DNA of 10,701 bases from Candidatus Nealsonbacteria bacterium RIFCSPHIGHO2_02_FULL_43_13 (lineage in GTDB: Bacteria > Patescibacteriota > Minisyncoccia > Minisyncoccales > MHMH01): assembly GCA_001819295.1 (NCBI GenBank), contig MHMD01000028.1, forward strand, positions 16,235-26,935, written 5' to 3'. The translations under genes and the position numbers were made by a program. Every line of letters starts with the position of its first letter. The stretch's first letter is position 1. Shown piece by piece: positions 1 through 9,507 of the stretch. The notes below the pieces were generated by a model that was not told where the DNA came from, searched no databases, and saw only the letters and a program-made list of their open reading frames with translations.

Positions 1-2618
1 TGAAGTTTTTGAAGATCGCTGTCCATAATAGCATTGGCTATCTGCCAGTCGATGAGATCGCCTTTTTTGCAAACTCCTTTGATGCTTTCCAAAATCGTGC
101 GACCAATAATCTTAAAGAAGAAACTCTGGCCTAAATCCTTGCTGTCTTGTTTAGCAAGCGTAATCCCTTCTTCGTCGCGGCAATCTTCATCCCTAATCAC
201 CATGTCGTGAGCTACATCAACCAGCCTTCTTGTCAGGTAGCCGGCAGCCGAAGTTCTCAAGGCCGTATCCGCAGTGCCTTTTCTCGCGCCGTGAGTGGAA
301 ATAAAGTATTCCAAAACGTCAAAACCTTCTTTGAAAGAAGACCTTACCGGCAATTCCAAAATCTCGCCGGCCGGATTGGTAACTAACCCCTTCATGCCCG
401 ACATCTGAACAATTTGGGACCAAGTGCCCCTGGCTCCAGAATTAATAATATTGATAACCGAACCCAAAGGCGGCAAAGCTTTTACCACCAATTTTTCGAT
501 TTCCGCTTTGGTCTTCTGCCAAACCTCGATGGCCTTATCGGTCTTTTCCTCTTTGGACAAAAGCCCTTTCTTGTAATGGGAATCGATCACTTCAATGGCC
601 TGATCGGCGTCCTCAAGAAGCTTTGCTTTTTCGGGCGGCACGACCAAGTCGTCCATGCCCCAGGTAATGCCCGAAATTGTGGAATATTCAAAGCCTAATT
701 TTTTGATTTTATCCAAAGCCTCTTCAACCGTATCTTTATCGTAAACCTCGATCATTTTCGCCGTTAGCTTTTCCAGGGTTTTCGCATCCATTTCTGAAAC
801 CTCAAAAGCGCAGTCCTTGGGCAAAGTATTGTTAAACAATATCTTGCCGACGGTCGTTTCCACGAATTTACTTTCGACTCTGACTTTAATGAGCGCTCGC
901 AAATCAATAATACCGGTGTCAGCCGCTAAAATAGCTTCGTTTTTGGAGCCAAAAATTTTACCCTCGCCCGCTCCGCCGGGCTTGATTCTCGTAATCCAGT
1001 GGCAGCCCAGCACAATGTCCCTCACCGGAGCGATAATCGGAGCGCCGGTCGCGGGTTTTAACATATTCAGGCTGGAAAGCATAATTTCTTTGGCTTCTTT
1101 CTGGGCCTCGTCCGACAACGGCACGTGGACAGCCATCTGGTCGCCGTCAAAGTCAGCGTTAAAAGCTTTACATACCAACGGATGCAAGCTTAACGCTTCT
1201 CCTTCGATTAAAACCGGCTGAAAGGCCTGGATGCCCAAGCGGTGAAGAGTCGGGGCCCGATTTAAAATCACGGCCTTATCTTTAACGATATCTTCCAAAA
1301 TGGCCCAGACTTCGGCAGGGGCTGATTCGATTAATCTTGACGCTCCCCTGACGTTATAAGCCAGCTCTTGATCTAAAATCTTTTTAATCACAAAAGGCTT
1401 GAAAAGCTCTAAAGCCATTTTCTTGGGCAGGCCGCATTGATGCAGTCTCAAGTCGGGACCAACGACAATGACTGACCGGCCGGAATAATCAACACGCTTC
1501 CCCAAAAGGTTCTGTCTAAATCGGCCTTGTTTCCCCTTAAGAATGTCAGCTAAAGATTTCAAAAGGCGTTTGCCGCCGGTGGTGGCCGTCGTCACCTGGC
1601 CCTTTCTCATGCCGTTATCGATTAAAGCGTCAACCGCTTCCTGCAGCATTCTTTTTTCGTTTCTGACGATGACGTCCGGAGCGTGAATTTCCAAAAGATA
1701 TTTTAAACGATTATTGCGGTTAATGACTCTGCGATAAAGATCGTTCAAGTCCGAAGAGGCGTACCTGCCCCCGTCCAGTTGCACCATCGGCCTCAAATCA
1801 GGAGGCAAAACCGGCAAAACGGTCAAAAACATCCACGCCGGATCAATATGAGCTCTTAACATCGCTTTTAAAACTCTCAGTCTTCTCAATAATTTCCGGC
1901 GAATAATCGGCGCGGCTTCAGGTATTGCTTCTTGAAGCGTTTTGATAATTTTTTTAAGGTCGACTTCCTGAAATATTTTCCTAAGGGTTTCCGAACCGGT
2001 GCCGGCTTCAAAAACCTCGCCGTATTTCAAAGAAAGATTATGGTATTCCAACTCCGAAATAACTTTCAAAGGCTTTAAACTATTCAATTCTTCACGAGCC
2101 CTGTCCCTGGCCGTTTTTAAATCTTTGGACTTCGCGTCATTTTTTGATTTTTGCTTATACTCTTTTTCGATTTCTGACAACGCATTTTTTCTCGCCTCTT
2201 CGAAAACCTTGGTGATAATATAAGAAGCGAAATAAATCACTCGTTCTAACTGCCCCATCGGAATATCCAAAATCATACCCATTCTCGAAGGCACTCCTCT
2301 TAAAAACCAAATGTGGGAGCAAGGCGCAGACAGGGCAATGTGGCCCAGTCTTTCCCGGCGCACGCCGGCTTTGGTCACTTCGACTCCGCATTTGTCGCAA
2401 ACAATGCCTTTATAGCGGATTTTGCGGTATTTGCCGCAATAGCATTCGTAGTCTTTAGTCGGCCCAAAAATCCTTTCGCAAAACAACCCGTCTTTTTCCG
2501 ATTTTTGAGTTCGATAATTAATGGTTTCGGGCTTAGTTACCTCGCCGTGCGACCAACCCAAAATATCTTCGGGCGAGGCCAGTTTTATTCTGATTGATTC
2601 TAAATCTATAACTCGCAT
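1..2618 (-). CDS. rpoC: DNA-directed RNA polymerase beta' subunit, 3' end cut by window edge
   Basis: This gene encodes the catalytic beta' subunit of RNA polymerase, which forms the active-site cleft with RpoB. About 872 codons are visible from ATG 2616-2618, beginning MRVIDLESIRIKLASPEDIL; the C-terminus lies left of the window. The N-terminal zinc site is present as C59, C61, C74 and C77 (ECYCG, then VCDKCG). The Mg-binding motif NADFDGD lies at residues 487-493, so all three catalytic aspartates are kept. The bridge-helix/trigger-loop region reads STHGARKGTADTAL around residue 776, and the first cysteine of the second zinc site is C813 (EDCRDEEGI). No frameshift or in-frame stop was seen. 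It lies 81 bp downstream of rpoB on the same strand, so the two are very probably co-transcribed. There is no Shine-Dalgarno at normal distance before the ATG; an AGGTGA sits too far upstream and inside a hairpin. The start is supported by the conserved N-terminus. Confidence 0.97.
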   Translation of the reverse strand, partial: MRVIDLESIRIKLASPEDILGWSHGEVTKPETINYRTQKSEKDGLFCERIFGPTKDYECYCGKYRKIRYKGIVCDKCGVEVTKAGVRRERLGHIALSAPCSHIWFLRGVPSRMGMILDIPMGQLERVIYFASYIITKVFEEARKNALSEIEKEYKQKSKNDAKSKDLKTARDRAREELNSLKPLKVISELEYHNLSLKYGEVFEAGTGSETLRKIFQEVDLKKIIKTLQEAIPEAAPIIRRKLLRRLRVLKAMLRAHIDPAWMFLTVLPVLPPDLRPMVQLDGGRYASSDLNDLYRRVINRNNRLKYLLEIHAPDVIVRNEKRMLQEAVDALIDNGMRKGQVTTATTGGKRLLKSLADILKGKQGRFRQNLLGKRVDYSGRSVIVVGPDLRLHQCGLPKKMALELFKPFVIKKILDQELAYNVRGASRLIESAPAEVWAILEDIVKDKAVILNRAPTLHRLGIQAFQPVLIEGEALSLHPLVCKAFNADFDGDQMAVHVPLSDEAQKEAKEIMLSSLNMLKPATGAPIIAPVRDIVLGCHWITRIKPGGAGEGKIFGSKNEAILAADTGIIDLRALIKVRVESKFVETTVGKILFNNTLPKDCAFEVSEMDAKTLEKLTAKMIEVYDKDTVEEALDKIKKLGFEYSTISGITWGMDDLVVPPEKAKLLEDADQAIEVIDSHYKKGLLSKEEKTDKAIEVWQKTKAEIEKLVVKALPPLGSVINIINSGARGTWSQIVQMSGMKGLVTNPAGEILELPVRSSFKEGFDVLEYFISTHGARKGTADTALRTSAAGYLTRRLVDVAHDMVIRDEDCRDEEGITLAKQDSKDLGQSFFFKIIGRTILESIKGVCKKGDLIDWQIANAIMDSDLQKL

Positions 2619-2699: not shown

Positions 2700-5600
2700 T
2701 TATTCGTCTTTAATAATTTTTTCTTTTACTTCGACGGCTAAACATAATGATTTTAATTCGTTGACAAGCAAATTAAAGGAGGCGGGCACTCCCGGATTTC
2801 TGATTTTATCCCCTTTCAGGATCGCCTCGTAGGTTGCGGCTCGGCCCGGCACATCATCGGACTTGATGGTCAGCATTTCCTGCAAAGTATAAGCCGCTCC
2901 ATAGCCTTCCAAAGCCCAAACTTCCATTTCGCCGAATCTTTGGCCGCCAAATTGCGCTTTGCCGCCCAACGGCTGCTGGGTGATTAAAGAATAAGGCCCC
3001 GTGCTTCTCATATGGATTTTATCTTCCACCATATGAATCAGTTTCATCATGTAAATTTGGCCCACGGTGATTTTTTCAGGGAATGGCAGTCCGGTTCGGC
3101 CGTCAGTTAAGATAACCTTGCCGTCTTCGGGGAAACCAGCTGCTTTCAATTCCGTTTTGATATCTTCTTCGGTCGCTCCCGATAAAGCCGGCGAAATCGC
3201 GGTGTAGCCCAATTTTTCAGCGGCAAAACCCAAATGAGTTTCCAAGATTTGCCCGATATTCATACGCGAAGCCACTGATAAAGGATTGATGATAATATCA
3301 ATCGCCGTACCATCGGCCATGAAGGGCATCTCTTCTTGCGGTAAAACTTTAGAAACGATTCCTTTATTACCGTGGCGGCCCGCTAATTTATCGCCCGCGT
3401 TGATTTTTCTCAATTGGGCCACTTCAACCTGGATTCTTTTGATAATCCCCGGCTCCAATTTATGACCGAGATCCCTCGCAAAAACCCTCACTCCGACAAC
3501 CCGGCCTTTTTTGCCGTGCTCCATAGTTAAAGAAGAGTCTTTGACTTCGCGCGCTTTTTCACCGAAAATAGCTCTCAATAATCTTTCTTCGGCCGTTAAA
3601 TCCTGCTCGCCTTTGGGCGAAATTTTGCCGACCAAAATATCATTGGGGCCAACTTCCGCGCCAATTCTGACAATACCTTCTTCGTCCAAATCTTTTAATT
3701 TATCTTCGCCGATATTGGGAATATCGGCCGTGGTCTGTTCGGGCCCCAGTTTCGTTTCTCTCACATCGCAGGTAAAGTTTTCCAAATGAATCGAGGTGTA
3801 ATAATCCTCTTTGACTAATTTATCGGAAACAACGATCGCATCTTCAAAATTTCTGCCTCGAAACGGCATAAAAGCGACCAAAACATTGCGGCCCAAAGCC
3901 AAGTGCCCCCGGTCAATCGCTCCCCCGTCAGCCAAAATATCGCCTTTTTTCACGGTTTGGCCGCGATTGACAATCGGCTTTTGATGGAAACAAGTATATT
4001 GGTTAGTCCTGATAAAAGTTTTTAAAGGATAATTGCGGCTGTTGACCTTAACATGTTCCGCATCAACCTCCATTACCGTCCCGGGTTCTTGGGCGATAAC
4101 TTCCTGGCCTGAATCTCGGGCCACTTTTTCTTCAGAGCCCGTCAAAACAAAAGGCATCTGCGGTTTGATTAAGGGCACGGCCTGGCGCTGCATATTAGAA
4201 CCCATCAAAGCGCGGTTGGCATCGTCGTTGCGCAAAAACGGCACCAATGAAGTACCCATTGAAATGAATTGCTCGGCGGCCACATCGATAAAATCAATCT
4301 TGTCGCGATCAACGAGACCGGGCTCTCCCTTAGTTCGGGCCGCCACCCTTGTTGGAATAATTTTGCCGCGATCATCAATCGGCACGCCGCCGTGAGCAAT
4401 ATTGTATTTCTCTTCTTCGTAAGCGGACATATAATGAAGTTCCTTAGTTACTTTACCGTTTGCCACTTTAAAATAAGGGGTCTCCACAAAGCCGTAAGAA
4501 TTGATGGTGGCGTAACCCGCCAAGTGGCCGACCAAGCCGATGTTGGGGCCTTCCGGAGTTTGAATCGGGCAAATTCGGCCGTAGTGCGAAGGCTGAACAT
4601 CCCTCACTTCAAAACCGGCTCTTTCTCTGGTCAACCCGCCCGGCCCTGTAGCTGACAACCGTCTTTTATGTTCAAGTTCGGCCAAAGGATTTTCATTGTC
4701 CATAAACTGGGACATTTGGCTTGAGGTGAAAAACTCTTTGACCACCGCCATGACCGGCCTCGGATTGATTAATTGGCTAGGACTCAAAGTGAAAACATCC
4801 AGCGTTGACATTCTGTCTTTGATGATTCTTTCCATTCTCATCATGCCTACCCTCATTCTGTTTTGCATCAACTCATTTAAGCGCCTGACTCTGCGGTTGC
4901 CCAAGTGATCAATTTCATCGGGTTTGGCTCCGGGAGTATTGTTGAGTTTAATAATTTCCCTGATAACAGCGATAATATCTTCGGGTTTCAAGACCCTGTC
5001 TTTAATAGTAACCTCTTCTTCTTTGCCGCCCTTTTTGTTGCGATTTTTGGCTAATTCCGGCAGTCGCTGCCAAGTTTTCCAGCGGCCGACTTTCGACAAG
5101 TCGTAGCGCTCGAAATTAAAGAACATATTATTCACCAGTTCCTGGGCGCTGTCGGAGGTAGCCAAATCTCCGGGTCTTAATCGGCGATAAATTTCCACCA
5201 CAGCTTCGGCTTGAGTCTTGGCCGTATCTTTTTCTAAGGTTGCCCGCAACTCTTTATCAAAAGTTTCTACGCCAAAAGCCCGCAAAAGCGTAGTGGCTGC
5301 CACTTTTCTTTTACGGTCGATTTTAACTCCGATAAAACCCGAGGGCTCCGATTCAAACTCGAGCCAAGCCCCCCTATTGGGGATGATTTTCGCGCCGAAA
5401 TAATTCTTGCCCCCGACGGTTTTAGCGGTGATAAAAGCTCCGGGCGATCTGATTAATTGAGCGATGGCGACCCTCTCTACGCCATTAACGATAAAAGTGC
5501 CCCGCTCGGTCATTAGGGGGAAATCAGCTAAAAAGACTTCTTGCTCTTTAATCTCTTTAGTTTTGAGATTGACAAGCTTTGTTTTAACTCTTAAAGAAAC

Positions 5601-5840
5601 CTCGTAAGAATCGTTGTTAATCTTCGCTTCAAGGTCATTTTTATATTTCGGATTATCCAGCTTGTAATCAGTGAACCAAATCTCTAATTCCTTGCCGGTG
5701 TAATCCCTAATGGGCGAGACTTCCAGGAAAAGCTCCTTTAAATCGCGCGCCCAAAACCTGTCCCAAGAATCTGTTTGGACTTTTAATAAATAAGGGAGGG
5801 GCAAGGTAACTCCTGATTTGCCGAAGTGTTTGAATTTCAT
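2700..5840 (-). CDS. rpoB: DNA-directed RNA polymerase beta subunit
   Basis: This is the beta subunit of RNA polymerase, complete at 1046 residues. That is some 300 shorter than the E. coli protein (1342), consistent with absence of the large lineage-specific inserts. Conserved landmarks occur in order: the rifampicin-pocket region SSQMSQFMDNENP at 373-385 and HKRRLSATGPGG at 391-402, ERAGFEVRDV and GRICPIQTPEGPNIGL at 406-436, NMQRQAVPL at 549-557, FMPFRGRNFEDAI at 657-669, GDKLAGRHGNKG at 816-827 with the two active-site lysines K818 and K826, and the C-terminal clamp-contact block GGKAQFGGQRFGEMEVWALE at 959-978. The start MKFKHFGKSG is the only reasonable ATG, and no Shine-Dalgarno precedes it. 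A short charged segment (KNRNKKGGKEEE, 265-276) is a mild insertion. Two promoters and a terminator-like hairpin lie upstream, and rpoC follows 81 bp downstream. No ribosomal protein gene adjoins on the rpoB side, unlike the classical rplJL-rpoBC arrangement. Confidence 0.99.
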   Translation of the reverse strand: MKFKHFGKSGVTLPLPYLLKVQTDSWDRFWARDLKELFLEVSPIRDYTGKELEIWFTDYKLDNPKYKNDLEAKINNDSYEVSLRVKTKLVNLKTKEIKEQEVFLADFPLMTERGTFIVNGVERVAIAQLIRSPGAFITAKTVGGKNYFGAKIIPNRGAWLEFESEPSGFIGVKIDRKRKVAATTLLRAFGVETFDKELRATLEKDTAKTQAEAVVEIYRRLRPGDLATSDSAQELVNNMFFNFERYDLSKVGRWKTWQRLPELAKNRNKKGGKEEEVTIKDRVLKPEDIIAVIREIIKLNNTPGAKPDEIDHLGNRRVRRLNELMQNRMRVGMMRMERIIKDRMSTLDVFTLSPSQLINPRPVMAVVKEFFTSSQMSQFMDNENPLAELEHKRRLSATGPGGLTRERAGFEVRDVQPSHYGRICPIQTPEGPNIGLVGHLAGYATINSYGFVETPYFKVANGKVTKELHYMSAYEEEKYNIAHGGVPIDDRGKIIPTRVAARTKGEPGLVDRDKIDFIDVAAEQFISMGTSLVPFLRNDDANRALMGSNMQRQAVPLIKPQMPFVLTGSEEKVARDSGQEVIAQEPGTVMEVDAEHVKVNSRNYPLKTFIRTNQYTCFHQKPIVNRGQTVKKGDILADGGAIDRGHLALGRNVLVAFMPFRGRNFEDAIVVSDKLVKEDYYTSIHLENFTCDVRETKLGPEQTTADIPNIGEDKLKDLDEEGIVRIGAEVGPNDILVGKISPKGEQDLTAEERLLRAIFGEKAREVKDSSLTMEHGKKGRVVGVRVFARDLGHKLEPGIIKRIQVEVAQLRKINAGDKLAGRHGNKGIVSKVLPQEEMPFMADGTAIDIIINPLSVASRMNIGQILETHLGFAAEKLGYTAISPALSGATEEDIKTELKAAGFPEDGKVILTDGRTGLPFPEKITVGQIYMMKLIHMVEDKIHMRSTGPYSLITQQPLGGKAQFGGQRFGEMEVWALEGYGAAYTLQEMLTIKSDDVPGRAATYEAILKGDKIRNPGVPASFNLLVNELKSLCLAVEVKEKIIKDE

Positions 5841-6056: not shown

Positions 6057-8285
6057 TTATCGGAGCTGGTCGATCTTTTTTTGCACGTCCTGGTTGGCCG
6101 GATTCAATTCCAAAACTTTTTGGAACTCTTCGATAGCTAAAGATTTCTTGCCTTGAGCTGCGTAAGCCACTCCCAGAGAATAATGGGCGTTGGAATGGTC
6201 AGGCACCAAAATCACCACTCTTTTGAATTGATTAATCGCCTCGGTAATCTGATTGTTGTTGAAATAAAGCCGGCCCAGCTGGAAAAGAATTTCTGAGCTT
6301 AAAGGAAAATCTACGGCTAACTCTTCCATTTCTTTTAAAGCATTCGCCTTATCTCCCTCCTTTTCAAAAAGCAAAGCTTGTTGAATTAAGGCATCAGTAT
6401 AATCAGCTTTGACTGCAATGGCTTTCGCAAATTCCTCTCGAGCCTTGCCAATTTCATCAGAGGCAATGTAAAGTTTGCCCAACTCGGTATAAGCTACGGG
6501 GTTCTGCGGATCAAGCGCAATGGCCTCCTGGAAAGACTTTATCCCCCACTCATTGGCGCCCGTAGCCACGGCTTTAATTTCCCGATAAATCATGCCTAGG
6601 GTTTCCCACATGGCAACTTGCTTAGGAGCAAGTTCGGTCGCCACTCTTGCCTGATTGATGGCGGTGGCCACCAATAACTGAATGCGAGAAGCATCCTGTT
6701 CGTTTAAAACATCGTTCAAATAGGCTCTCGCTAAAACCGCCCGGTACTGGGGAGAGCTCGGATTGAGTCTGACTGCTTTTTCCAACAACACCGTTCTTTC
6801 GTTGCTTAAATTTAACTTCTGGGCATTGGCATAATTCACATCGGCTAAATAGGTCTTAACGTTGAAAAAGTAAAGCGCTAAAACTCCCACGCCCACTAAA
6901 ATAACAATCGTCGAAAACACCAAACTTAATTCGGGAAAATTCTTGAAAGAGATTACTTTTTCTTTAATCGGTTTTTGCCAAGCAATAACCGATAAACCCA
7001 AGATTAACCAAAACAAAAACGCTAAGGTCGTGTTTTGATAATAAACGAACTGCCCCGCGACGAGTGCGGAAAAAACCATCAATAAAAGCAGGGCTTGCGA
7101 CTTTTGCCGCAAGAAAAAGTAGCTGGCCATAAAGAAGATGGCGATTAAAGCCAAATAGCTTAAAATTCCCAAAAAGCCTAAAGTTCCTAAGATTTCAGCC
7201 AAATGAACCCCTGATCGGTCAAATCTAATTTGCCATAGCCAGCTTGAGTTGATTGACAACGGTTTTTCTTTGGCAAAGTCGTAATTAAAAGTGCCGATGC
7301 CCGAGCCCAAAAAACTGCTTTTAACGCTGTCCGTAGCTCCCCCGAAACCTATTTGCCAAGAAGTTTTTTGGTCTAAAACCTGCTCTTTCATTAAATTCGC
7401 CACGTTTGATCCTTCGCCGAAAATCAACGCCTGGGGCTGCGAAACAATACAGGCCGCCGCCACGATAATTAAAAATATCGGGATCAAAAGACGATTAACA
7501 TTATCCCGAAACACTTTTTTCCATAAACTTAAACCCACGAACAAGGCAAAGGTTATTAAGACGATCAGCCAGGCCGGCGTAAAACCAATGATGATTAACA
7601 AACCCAAAATGGCTGCCAAAAGCAAGTAAGTAATCCTGCCGGTTTTGGCCGATGTTAATATTTTGCCTACCAAGAAAACCATGCTTATTGCCAAAAAGAT
7701 ACTTAATCCTTCAAGCGAAGCAGCCGTCGGATTAAAAATCCGCAACGCCATCATCTTGGGCAAGAAAAGAAGACCAGCCAGTTTCGCAAAAACACCGAAG
7801 ATAGCCAAATAAGAAAACAGAACCGCAACAAAGACTGACCAGGAAAGCGTTTTCAAAAGCCCGCTAATCGTGATGTTTGGAGGTTCGACCTCCTTGGGAG
7901 GTCGAACCTCCCCAGATCGGACGTTGTTGGTAATCAAGAAATAAAACACGCCCAAAGACAAAAGCCCGATTAACCCGTTAGAAAACCGCCCGTAAAAACC
8001 GTACAAGCTTGATGTTTTATCTACCGAAAAGATGGCCGATAAGATGGCGACTCCCATAAAAGCCAGAACGAAGATATCCAAGGGCGAGCGCTCAAATCTT
8101 ATTTCCTTATCAACTACAACCATCTTGGCCAGCCACGCGAAAAACGCCAAAGAAACCAAAAAGAGCAGTAAAAACTGCTTATTATATTCAAACGCCTCAA
8201 AACTGAAAGGCAAGAAGAATAGCGGCGTTAAAAACACGAGTAAATATAGACTTATCTTGATGATGCGGTCGAAAAAGTTTTGCAT
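6057..8285 (-). CDS. polytopic O-antigen-ligase-like membrane protein with C-terminal TPR repeats
   Basis: This 742-residue inner-membrane protein has an N-terminal half rich in hydrophobic helices (roughly 9-30, 36-54, 70-88, 103-120, 145-172, 187-207, 218-252, 265-282, 361-392, 398-436 and 454-474). A soluble C-terminal half from about 485 carries tetratricopeptide repeats, for example EWGIKSFQEAIALDPQNPVA and HYSLGVAYAAQGKKSLAIEE. The layout and the large loop between helices (about 285-360) resemble the WaaL/Wzy/PglL O-antigen ligase/polymerase superfamily fused to TPRs, which suggests transfer or polymerisation of lipid-linked glycans, with the TPRs binding a partner. The substrate cannot be read from sequence. 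An inverted repeat encodes residues 125-136 in a loop between helices. The start MQNFFDRIIK begins just before the first helix; no Shine-Dalgarno is visible, but an extended -10 lies about 30 nt upstream. Confidence is high for the gene and moderate for the function. Confidence 0.85.
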   Translation of the reverse strand: MQNFFDRIIKISLYLLVFLTPLFFLPFSFEAFEYNKQFLLLFLVSLAFFAWLAKMVVVDKEIRFERSPLDIFVLAFMGVAILSAIFSVDKTSSLYGFYGRFSNGLIGLLSLGVFYFLITNNVRSGEVRPPKEVEPPNITISGLLKTLSWSVFVAVLFSYLAIFGVFAKLAGLLFLPKMMALRIFNPTAASLEGLSIFLAISMVFLVGKILTSAKTGRITYLLLAAILGLLIIIGFTPAWLIVLITFALFVGLSLWKKVFRDNVNRLLIPIFLIIVAAACIVSQPQALIFGEGSNVANLMKEQVLDQKTSWQIGFGGATDSVKSSFLGSGIGTFNYDFAKEKPLSINSSWLWQIRFDRSGVHLAEILGTLGFLGILSYLALIAIFFMASYFFLRQKSQALLLLMVFSALVAGQFVYYQNTTLAFLFWLILGLSVIAWQKPIKEKVISFKNFPELSLVFSTIVILVGVGVLALYFFNVKTYLADVNYANAQKLNLSNERTVLLEKAVRLNPSSPQYRAVLARAYLNDVLNEQDASRIQLLVATAINQARVATELAPKQVAMWETLGMIYREIKAVATGANEWGIKSFQEAIALDPQNPVAYTELGKLYIASDEIGKAREEFAKAIAVKADYTDALIQQALLFEKEGDKANALKEMEELAVDFPLSSEILFQLGRLYFNNNQITEAINQFKRVVILVPDHSNAHYSLGVAYAAQGKKSLAIEEFQKVLELNPANQDVQKKIDQLR
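7879..7911. repeat. GAGGTT/GAGGTC double palindrome, copy 3, inside a coding sequence
   Basis: GGAGGTTCGACCTCC (7879-7893) and GGAGGTCGAACCTCC (7897-7911) are perfect reverse complements with a 3-nt loop. The core GAGGTTCGACCTC is a variant of the core in the copies at 6006 and 8605. This copy lies in frame inside the ligase/TPR gene and encodes about residues 125-136 (GEVRPPKEVEPP on the minus strand), a hydrophilic proline-rich loop between two membrane helices. Confidence 0.88.
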
Positions 8286-8353: not shown

Positions 8354-8381
8354 TTGACATCACCCCTTGATTTGCTATAAT
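8354..8381 (+). promoter_or_regulatory. near-consensus promoter of the structured RNA
   Basis: TTGACA at 8354-8359 and TATAAT at 8376-8381 match both sigma70 consensus hexamers, with a 16-bp spacer. Predicted start is A8388 or G8389. No protein gene lies downstream on this strand before the terminator at 8560-8586, so the promoter most likely drives the RNA itself. Confidence 0.8.
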
Positions 8382-8433
8382 TGCGTTAGACACTGATAAG
8401 TTCGTATACCACGGACTAAATCGGGTACCACGG

Positions 8434-8457
8434 AAAGGTCCTCAAAAGGGGCCTTTT
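8434..8457 (+). terminator. internal hairpin with short T-run inside the structured RNA
   Basis: AAAGGTCC (8434-8441) pairs with GGGCCTTT (8449-8456, one GU) across a 7-nt loop, followed by T-rich TTCTGTT. It could be an early terminator making a short RNA of about 70 nt, or simply the apical stem of the longer RNA. The weak T-tract favours the latter. Confidence 0.35.
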
Positions 8458-8458
8458 C

Positions 8459-8467
8459 TGTTATAAT
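8459..8467 (+). promoter_or_regulatory. possible internal extended -10 promoter
   Basis: TG-T-TATAAT is a perfect extended -10 sequence directly after the internal hairpin; no -35 is visible. A start near 8474 would begin at the strand CGTGGACTCGG, which pairs over 11 bp with 8545-8555, giving a compact RNA of about 110 nt including the terminator. It may be fortuitous in an A/T-rich loop. Confidence 0.3.
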
Positions 8468-8559
8468 AAATCCGTGGACTCGGGCCTGTGGTGTATAAAG
8501 TAGCATATCAGTGTTGGTACCTGATGAAGCGAGTGCAAATCTCGCCGGGTCCACGTCAG

Positions 8560-8586
8560 AAAGTCTTGGCAATCCCAGGACTTTTT
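8560..8586 (+). terminator. intrinsic terminator of the structured RNA
   Basis: AAAGTCTTGG (8560-8569) pairs with CCAGGACTTT (8575-8584) over ten base pairs (one GU) around a 5-nt loop, ending in a T-run 8582-8586. It lies 5 nt after the last paired segment of the RNA. Confidence 0.8.
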
Positions 8587-8604
8587 GATTTCCCGCAATA
8601 TCGT

Positions 8605-8646
8605 GAGGTCCGACCTCCCTCAAAATTACGGGGGAGGTCGGACCTC
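8605..8646. repeat. GAGGTC double palindrome, copy 2
   Basis: GAGGTCCGACCTCCC (8605-8619) pairs perfectly with 8632-8646. Outer flanks (CGTGAGGTC and GACCTCCTAA) match copy 1 at 6006-6047 in direct orientation. The loop (TCAAAATTAC) is the reverse complement of the loop in copy 1, and the central base of both arms is swapped between C and G. It lies 10 nt beyond the stop codon of relic B, as copy 1 lies 9 nt beyond the stop of the ligase/TPR gene. Confidence 0.9.
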
Positions 8647-8656
8647 CTAATATCCG

Positions 8657-8790: not shown

Positions 8791-9507
8791 CTATTCGAGG
8801 GTGAAAGAACTAATTTCGTCAAATTTTCTGTCTAATAACACGCTTTTTACGAACTTTTGATAATCGCTCGGGCTAGAAAAAAACTCTCCCAGCAGCCCCT
8901 TTTCAATAATAATTGAATTTCTTTTATTCAAATACTCCTGTTGCGTACTCCATTGGTATTCTTCGGCAAATTGCATTACTTTTTCTATATTTTTTATGCC
9001 ATTTTCTTTCAAATTGGGCTCAACCAATTCTCCTGGATTTAAGACATTAATGTAGACGAGAAGGTATTGAAGATATTTTTCGTTATCAATTAAAGCCGCT
9101 TTGAATGTTCCCTGGTATAAACTTCCCACCCTCTTATATTTATTGTTGAAATACTTTGTATAGCCAACGCCTAACTTATGCATGAAACAACTAATTCCGC
9201 CTTCTTTGATTTCTTCTATCAACAGATGAAAATGATTCGGCATCAAGCAATCGACTAAAATTCTGACCAAGGGTTTTCGTTCCCGATTATCTTTTTTAAA
9301 AAAATCTCTTAAAACTCCGAAAGTTACCCCTCCTCGGGTTTTTTCCAATTGCCAAAGCAGGTTTGCGGTTGCCTTTTCATCGTTGAACATAAACAAACCC
9401 TGAAGAAATCTCCATCGGTCATTATCATTCTTAAAAATATCCCTCTTTTCCACTCCCCGATTATAAATATGGTAAAAATTTCCTTTGTGAAACTGAATTT
9501 TTCTCAT
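8791..9507 (-). CDS. REP-associated / IS200-like Y1 (HUH) transposase
   Basis: This 238-residue protein belongs to the Y1 transposase superfamily, REP-associated (RAYT/TnpA-REP) branch. These single-strand DNA endonucleases bind hairpins and attack with a tyrosine. The N-terminus KGNFYHIYNRGVEKRDIF is typical. The metal-binding HUH motif is H92-F93-H94 within LMPNHFHLLIEE, and the catalytic tyrosine is probably Y116 (or Y119) in GYTKYFNNKY, followed by the family block RVGSLYQGTFKAALI. Further on, YLLVYINVLNP corresponds to the usual YIHLNP segment, and the tail FAEEYQWSTQQEYL matches the family. The frame is intact with all key residues, so the enzyme may be active. The start ATG 9505-9507 gives the canonical N-terminus; no Shine-Dalgarno precedes it (AAACAAAAAAG). 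Flanking inverted palindromes are its likely substrates. Confidence 0.9.
   Translation of the reverse strand: MRKIQFHKGNFYHIYNRGVEKRDIFKNDNDRWRFLQGLFMFNDEKATANLLWQLEKTRGGVTFGVLRDFFKKDNRERKPLVRILVDCLMPNHFHLLIEEIKEGGISCFMHKLGVGYTKYFNNKYKRVGSLYQGTFKAALIDNEKYLQYLLVYINVLNPGELVEPNLKENGIKNIEKVMQFAEEYQWSTQQEYLNKRNSIIIEKGLLGEFFSSPSDYQKFVKSVLLDRKFDEISSFTLE

Follow-up and report, generated by a model that had tools for sequence, protein, structure and literature searches.

A candidate module of a tRNA-like RNA and an adjoining antisense RNA in Patescibacteria

Mistranslating chimeric tRNAs, with the identity of one amino acid and the anticodon of another, reportedly occur in Streptomyces, as tRNAProA and as Pro tRNAs with Asn or Thr anticodons. 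We know of no tRNA with a dedicated antisense RNA that controls it, and the titles and abstracts of the open-licence literature yielded no structured or tRNA-like RNA and no antisense-controlled tRNA relevant to the bacteria considered here. RNA-RNA toxin-antitoxin pairs are classified as type VIII (PMC10767807), and CreT sequesters a tRNA (PMC8501985). The anticodon is used by neither AlaRS, which relies on the G3-U70 pair, nor SerRS, for which the variable arm is decisive (PMC6316282).

Here we describe a locus in a window of 10,701 nucleotides (the whole stretch of DNA analysed), which is part of a 524-kb genome that is 92% complete. The feature is real and most likely comprises two transcription units in tandem, a short RNA (T1) followed by a tRNA-like RNA (T2), with extensive complementarity between the two.

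Layout of the locus and its transcript limits

The initial annotation described a single, structured transcription unit with its own promoter and terminator, on the strand opposite to the genes and without a reading frame. A structured, conserved non-coding locus with both signals is well supported: homologues are present in related genomes, the stretch 8388-8590 folds at -89.6 kcal/mol compared to -53.1 for shuffled sequences (z -9.06, with none of 200 shuffles as good), no plus-strand ORF of at least 60 aa overlaps it, and the large ORFs lie on the minus strand. The features are as follows.

8354-8381, + strand: P1 promoter, TTGACA, 16-nt spacer, TATAAT (12/12 consensus)
~8388-8461, + strand: T1, putative antisense RNA of ~74 nt (start placed from the P1 -10; MFE -27.2 kcal/mol)
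8390-8398, + strand: T1 segment a, complementary over 9 bp to T2 8506-8514 (anticodon 5' strand and first loop bases)
8400-8416, + strand: T1 hairpin b, GUUCGU/ACGGAC (from sequence; a hairpin in the MFE structure)
8420-8430, + strand: T1 segment c, complementary over 11 bp to T2 8515-8525 (anticodon loop and 3' strand)
8431-8461, + strand: terminator-like hairpin and U-run closing T1 (a hairpin in the MFE structure)
8459-8467, + strand: P2 promoter, extended -10 TGTTATAAT
8474-8481, + strand: 5' leader of T2, 8 nt, GTGGACTC; with G8482 it offers an alternative 9-bp pairing to 8546-8554
8482-8553, + strand: T2, tRNA-like cloverleaf with an Ala-type acceptor (G3-U70, A73; Rfam, covariation and MFE)
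8512-8520, + strand: T2 anticodon loop, 9 nt, TGTTGGTAC, read as UU-GGU-AC in the favoured register (position counts in 49 loci)
8560-8586, + strand: T2 terminator, a hairpin then a T-run (sequence and MFE)

P1 is of the sigma-70 type, and the annotated quality of this promoter is confirmed: it is matched by the best promoter upstream of rpoB (5990-5963; gene identity given by Pfam). TTGACA with a TANNNT -10 is found upstream of 43 of 47 homologues, the exact combination being missing at L025, L055, L057 and L076 (L055 is masked there); the promoter counts leave out L037 and L061, in which the upstream region is truncated. The final terminator was annotated as perfect, but its 10-bp stem (8560-8569/8575-8584) includes one U-G wobble. 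Elsewhere in the window we note a hairpin of at least 20 bp (2625-2676), located where rpoB (2700-5840) meets rpoC (open frame 3-2654), which Rfam flags through weak miRNA models only.

The annotation of a single complete unit does not hold as well. The T1 hairpin and T-run recur in an alignment of 44 homologues (leaving out L025, L052, L076, L037 and L061), and a TANNNT hexamer stands directly before T2 in 46 of 47 loci, where shuffled sequences would give 23.5 (and 33 at most). The best such hexamer starts 20 nt before G1 of T2 in 28 of these 46, and in 23 loci a TTGNAA hexamer lies 15-19 nt further upstream. Since an internal hairpin with a U-run and a second promoter lie within the stretch, two transcripts are most likely. 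The two-RNA architecture is well supported, and T1 and T2 would then be expressed as separate RNAs. One long regulatory RNA starting at P1, with its T1 part folded onto the tRNA-like part as a pseudoknot, would account for the adjacency of T1 and T2 on one strand and for the very stable full-length fold, but it is improbable given that the two halves are repeatedly separated by a terminator-like hairpin and P2, that L052 carries an insert of ~70 bases between the T1 hairpin and P2, that T2 occurs without a recognisable T1 at L025, L076 and L082, and that P1-T1 follows a tRNA-like RNA in seven relatives (see below).

The T1-less loci have peculiarities of their own. At L076 (G160:C23:2007-3081, T2 at 501-574) the T1 region is replaced by sequence with a ~21-bp inverted repeat, leaving a pairing energy of -11.0, and a T-stem mismatch in T2 looks as if this copy were decaying. 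L025 and L082 contain a helix of ~6-8 bp beyond the acceptor (CCCCAG/CTGGGG and GGCACATG/CATGTGCC), which is perhaps a closed-end variant of T2.

The tRNA-like RNA and its antisense partner

The initial annotation matched the RNA to no family and proposed an Rfam search. This search returned the tRNA family RF00005 at 8482-8553, with 40.6 bits against a gathering cut-off of 29 (E 6.5e-6); the 5' half, and the module taken as a whole, match no family, but the 3' half is a tRNA by this threshold. ARAGORN found no tRNA in the window. The MFE structure of isolated T2 is a cloverleaf with two extra pairs within the anticodon loop, and the T-arm-like 3' hairpin that had been annotated is present. 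Covariation among homologues, another of the checks proposed, is likewise seen. In an alignment of 31 sequences (29 distinct), 96.9% of cells in the cloverleaf are paired compared to 84.3% when shuffled, slid versions reach at most 55.3%, and the stems contain 84 two-sided changes versus 25.5 in shuffles, affecting every one of the four D-stem and five anticodon-stem pairs; further pair types are no more numerous than in shuffles (26 versus 24.0; 90/500). Pair 3-70 is G-U in 28 of the 29 distinct rows, the exception being L035 with A-U, and the genome's own tRNA-Ala has an acceptor of the same type.

Unusual bases are seen at T-loop positions 55-56, which are GC in 44 loci, UC in three and GU in two (n=49), such that G55 is present in 46/49. 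With the D-loop read by eye, U55 occurs solely in the three loci with G18 (L053, L055 and L075) and U56 solely in the two with A19 (L049 and L054), a co-occurrence that fits what tertiary elbow contacts would demand. The leader of T2 mimics the 5' side of its acceptor stem: across 49 loci, 399 of 441 cells formed by the leader plus G1 and the acceptor 3' strand are standard pairs, and slid registers give 149 to 237. This pairing and the normal acceptor stem are mutually exclusive, and T2 therefore has an alternative fold. The leader-register energies are near equal (means of -23.2 and -22.6 kcal/mol) and carry no weight, because the D-stem was left out when the tRNA form was scored and any leader containing additional bases was placed in the wrong register.

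The RF00005 pattern of a 7-nt anticodon loop is replaced in T2 by a 9-nt loop on a covarying 5-bp stem. Loop position 3 is U in 49/49, position 4 is U in 46/49, position 5 is a purine in 49/49 and position 8 is A in 48/49, so that the last seven bases resemble a canonical UU-RNY-A-C. The register is ambiguous, and we favour this one because an A then sits at position 37; its triplets are GAC in 22 loci, AGC (an Ala anticodon) in 13, GGU in eight and others in six (n=49). In ARAGORN's register they are mostly UGA, with UAG, UGG, UGC and others. Standard pairs between loop positions 2 and 9 are possible in 32 of 49 loci compared to 23.5 in shuffles (p ~0.001; GC in 25, TA in six), and positions 3 and 8 do so in all 49 as a nearly invariant U3-A8. 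The isolated loop may thus be closed by two extra pairs, and since T1 pairs with both sides of the loop the 2-9 covariation may reflect T1 instead. Covarying bases within an anticodon loop speak against simple decoding.

A serious rival emerges from these data, namely that T2 is a non-translating tRNA mimic whose availability is tuned by T1, acting as a decoy or sponge for AlaRS or SerRS, EF-Tu or processing and modification enzymes, or as bait for an anticodon nuclease. We regard this as possible, though less likely than not. The 9-nt loop with its possible internal pairs, the prevalence of G55, the variation of the anticodon between loci, and a leader/trailer pairing that may hold the ends closed all fit a mimic. 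A mere decoy, however, needs neither the conserved U3, purine 5 and A8 nor the GAU triplet that most class II relatives (below) keep in a canonical 7-nt loop.

Gene complementarity between T1 and T2 is well supported. In addition to segments a and c, T1 8404-8414 is complementary to T2 8486-8496 (acceptor end and D-arm). The long hairpin with a bubble and the possible pseudoknot of the initial annotation correspond to these segments: the paired stretches and the pseudoknot-type complementarity are there, but the supposed hairpin is T1 paired with T2. The MFE structure of T1 alone is a stem of a and c around hairpin b, followed by the terminator hairpin, and is similar in several of 15 homologues. 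A MAFFT alignment of T1 is too gappy for pair counts, and cognate and non-cognate combinations were compared instead. Over a 12-nt anticodon segment, an average of 11.2 of 12 positions pair with the cognate T1, 9.0 with non-cognate T1s and 8.3 with shuffled T1s (45 loci, leaving out L025 and L076, which have no T1, and the truncated L037 and L061). Mean duplex energies are -26.8 for cognate and -19.9 for non-cognate pairs (47 loci, L037 and L061 left out). The cognate T1 ranks first for just nine of 47 class I T2s, because similar segments recur among loci. Between paralogues in one genome the cognate is clearly best for the three G088 copies and for the compared pairs of G113 and G144; the preference of L038 is marginal (-21.0 versus -20.6), and the T1 of L063 pairs slightly better with the T2 of L075 (-25.3) than with its own (-24.5).

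Ordinary tRNAs lack such a partner. In the 120 nt upstream of 30 tRNAs (of 81 tRNA matches; G000 and G209) the longest run complementary to the tRNA averages 7.3 nt and never exceeds 9, whereas it averages 11.7 in 46 class I loci (L052 and short rows left out) and is at least 10 in 44 of them; an antisense leader comparable to T1 was found in none of the 30. The sequence of T2 alone can nonetheless pass for a tRNA gene: among 29 class I pattern loci, ARAGORN identified 16 as tRNA-Ser, -Leu, -Pro or -Ala and missed the rest, and it called one of seven class II loci tested, and the module is therefore hidden by annotation. These calls and the Rfam match over cut-off are what would be expected if the locus were simply a normal tRNA gene, or a tRNA pseudogene in decay, that happens to have a hairpin upstream. 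We consider that explanation very improbable given the silence of ARAGORN on the window, the strong covariation across lineages, the absence of comparable leaders among the ordinary tRNAs examined, and the presence of both tRNA-Ala and tRNA-Thr(GGU) elsewhere in the same genome.

A T-box-like sensor, in which the T1 leader would sense a tRNA by pairing and either terminate or read into T2, also deserves mention, as the complementarity of T1 is to an anticodon arm and its 3' end is a terminator-like hairpin. Such an arrangement is very improbable: instead of a codon and an acceptor tail, the pairing involves 11-13 bp of the neighbouring cognate T2, P2 frees T2 from read-through, the order is reversed in some relatives, and Rfam gave no T-box match in the window up to E 1.

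Distribution, Ser-type modules and reversed order

Homologues of the window module constitute class I, with 50 loci having distinct T2s (49 plus L082), and all those with a lineage name belong to Patescibacteria. When 100 related genomes were searched by blastn, seven had matches, with true homologues in five, own genome included; L008 is an ordinary tRNA-Ala and L007 a short match to other sequence. L007 separately contains a group I intron (1600-1849, minus strand; RF00028, 93.1 bits), apparently within a tRNA gene of a related genome. An exact T-arm pattern run over a named genome collection identified 30 loci, 28 with titles naming a Patescibacteria lineage, including Staskawicz-, Yanofsky-, Magasanik-, Falkow-, Uhr- and Jacksonbacteria. 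The title of L019 reads 'bacterium' only, and L012 (Alphaproteobacteria) was dropped, with a model score of 35.5 bits and no leader seen. The named organisms rest on this one pattern, and divergent members are under-represented.

Across 246 genomes of the order, a T2 covariance model lists 31 matches in 23 genomes (63.6 to 93.1 bits), and among the matches listed six of the 23 genomes have two or three copies; matches at or below 60.1 bits were taken as ordinary tRNAs, L064, L077 and L078 being the ones read. A phylum-wide sample has a match at 1e-15 in three of 286 genomes, own genome included. With few genomes involved and several of them holding two or three copies, class I is patchy and sometimes multi-copy.

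The neighbours are diverse housekeeping genes. The module lies upstream of atpG on the opposite strand at L024, L028 and L035, between S10 and L3 at L016 and L030, behind L3 on the other strand at L038, and within a few kb of RF1 at L011, L021, L037 and L040. No recurring partner protein was found, with no ORF cluster common to more than six of the 31 loci clustered, and 13 of 55 neighbour and cluster-representative proteins (five from the window) are without a Pfam family. Because the neighbouring genes vary, the T1 and T2 RNAs probably act in trans, and would pair with each other in trans. In the window itself, 8791-9507 (minus strand) encodes an IS200-like Y1 transposase domain (PF01797), and palindromic GGAGGTCGGACCTCC-type repeats at ~7879-7912 and 8605-8648 are possibly REP-like elements of a RAYT system.

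A phage origin is unsupported. The exact T-arm pattern is absent from the viral contigs, a looser leader/acceptor/T-loop pattern gave 13 matches there of which the covariance model confirmed none, and blastn of the window stretch against phage records gave no match.

A second class of module is seen at the atpG site. The gene is present in 12 of 14 genomes of one family and has a module upstream in two of the 12; one of the ten loci without a module (L102) is cut by a contig end. G076 carries class I at this site (L098), and G205 a different RNA in the same layout (L100).

L100:2497-2760, + strand: class II module upstream of atpG, at the same site as class I in a relative
L108-L121, L123-L127, L129 and L138-L142: further class II loci

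The promoter and terminator stretches of the G205 module are 91% and 94% alike to those of G076, suggesting that the inner cassette may have been exchanged by recombination at this site. The class II T2 resembles the window genome's serine tRNAs, with a long variable arm, a 6-bp D-stem, G73 and a GGAGG acceptor; against tRNA-Sec (RF01852) it scores 41.0 bits, below the cut-off of 47 (one member tested). Blastn gave class II matches in 30 of 246 genomes, which on reading contain the module in 20 and none in ten. Pairing in 21 aligned sequences (leaving out L124, with a shortened T-arm, and L115 and L142, which were not parsed and were dropped earlier) is 93.9% of cells compared to 78.8% shuffled, with 106 two-sided changes versus 33.2, and the weakest helix is the anticodon stem (77%). 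The loop reads YUGAUAA in 15 of 21, which is the loop of the window genome's tRNA-Ile(GAU), and the GAU triplet is present in 19 of 21.

Class II T1s are likewise complementary to the anticodon arm (0.89 of positions cognate, 0.76 non-cognate and 0.65 shuffled), with weaker complementarity to the variable/T-arm region (0.90, 0.84 and 0.79, respectively), in 19 loci leaving out L125, L126 and L127 with short upstream sequence. Duplex energies are -35.9 for cognate and -29.6 for non-cognate pairs, the cognate ranks first in two of 19, and no more than two mismatches are present in P1 at 18 of the 19 loci. The two classes occur together in nine genomes, compared to 1.9 expected (Fisher p 9.5e-6, ignoring relatedness).

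A reversed order is seen at L132 (G012) and L136 (G113), where P1-T1 lies downstream of a tRNA-like RNA that is Ala-type (G3-U70, by eye). Used as blastn queries against 246 genomes, these units matched 10 and 2 of them, respectively, and five more reversed loci were found: L184 (G001, of the window's own family), L186 and L193 (G043), L189 (G217) and L190 (G212). At the seven loci, the longest unbroken complementarity between T1 and T2 measures 12 to 17 nt, compared to shuffled means of 8.5 to 10.4, and lies above every shuffle in three (L136, L190 and L193). Seven other candidates (L185, L187, L188, L191, L192, L195 and L196) are partial or not modules. The downstream location of P1-T1 in seven loci makes T1 a unit of its own, placed before or behind T2. 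The reversed-order RNAs were not counted in the class I census because they score just 26 to 31 bits with the model (two loci).

Possible roles and relationship to known systems

Charging, decoding, toxicity and any physiological role of T2 can be proposed here from sequence features. It is striking that the two classes imitate just AlaRS- and SerRS-type tRNAs while their anticodons differ. As these synthetases are blind to the anticodon, foreign codons could receive Ala or Ser from T2-type RNAs. A plausible scenario, to which we give about an even chance, is that the modules encode antisense-gated chimeric tRNAs, perhaps serving as a mistranslation switch or an RNA-RNA toxin-antitoxin pair. 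T2 would keep the identity elements for a synthetase that ignores the anticodon (AlaRS, and apparently SerRS in class II), its anticodon arm having been turned into something else. T1, made from an adjoining and strong-looking promoter, would be its dedicated antisense RNA and would invade the D-arm and anticodon arm of T2, upon which the T2 leader would capture the acceptor 3' strand. Folding, processing and charging of T2 bound in this way would be prevented, as would its entry into the ribosome; if T1 fell, T2 would fold, become charged, and insert Ala (or Ser) at other codons or jam ribosomes. The T1-less loci L025, L076 and L082 count mildly against a lethal addiction. The scenario is also weakened by the large and perhaps partly paired anticodon loop, and by the 13 of 49 class I triplets that would be normal Ala anticodons in the favoured register.

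A broader proposal is tentative and, taken whole, rather unlikely: that Patescibacteria carry recombining RNA-only cassettes, each an AlaRS- or SerRS-type tRNA with a foreign anticodon gated by its own separately promoted antisense RNA before or behind it, as programmable, locus-specific control of code accuracy. The module is compact and self-contained. If T2 is charged and decodes, it would represent switchable code-bending in minimal, mostly uncultured bacteria; if it is a decoy, it would represent a new type of regulatory tRNA mimic.

Among known RNAs, the tmRNA (RF00023) shares an Ala-type acceptor and a T-arm with T2, which differs in having no visible tag reading frame. The window has no tmRNA match in Rfam up to E 1, and the homologues L004 and L005, at 22.3 and 25.2 bits, fall below the cut-off of 47 and match the acceptor and T-arm only. 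T2 is rejected as a tmRNA or tmRNA substitute because an ordinary tmRNA scores over cut-off in 46 of 48 genomes searched, own genome included. Class II resembles tRNA-Sec in its 6-bp D-stem, short D-loop, long variable arm and G73, but scores below that model's cut-off and has an Ile(GAU)-like loop rather than UCA. T2 resembles an Ala-type tRNA, with which it shares the cloverleaf, U8, A14, A21, A58 of the T-loop, G3-U70, A73 and a score above the gathering cut-off, and from which it departs in the 9-nt anticodon loop, in G55 for U55 in nearly all loci, in the acceptor-mimicking 8-nt leader and in its adjoining dedicated antisense RNA.

The type VIII systems CreTA and SdsR-RyeA are similar in that both partners are RNAs, and same-strand neighbours also occur for creTA; the module likewise has genes for two neighbouring, mutually complementary putative RNAs. 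CreT acts on the tRNA pool, whereas the presumed effector of the module is itself a tRNA. The chimeric tRNAs of Streptomyces, finally, share with T2 an acceptor identity belonging to one amino acid, but are of another lineage and involve other amino acids, and the module differs from them in that its synthetases are blind to the anticodon, in that no recurring neighbour gene was found, and in its antisense partner.
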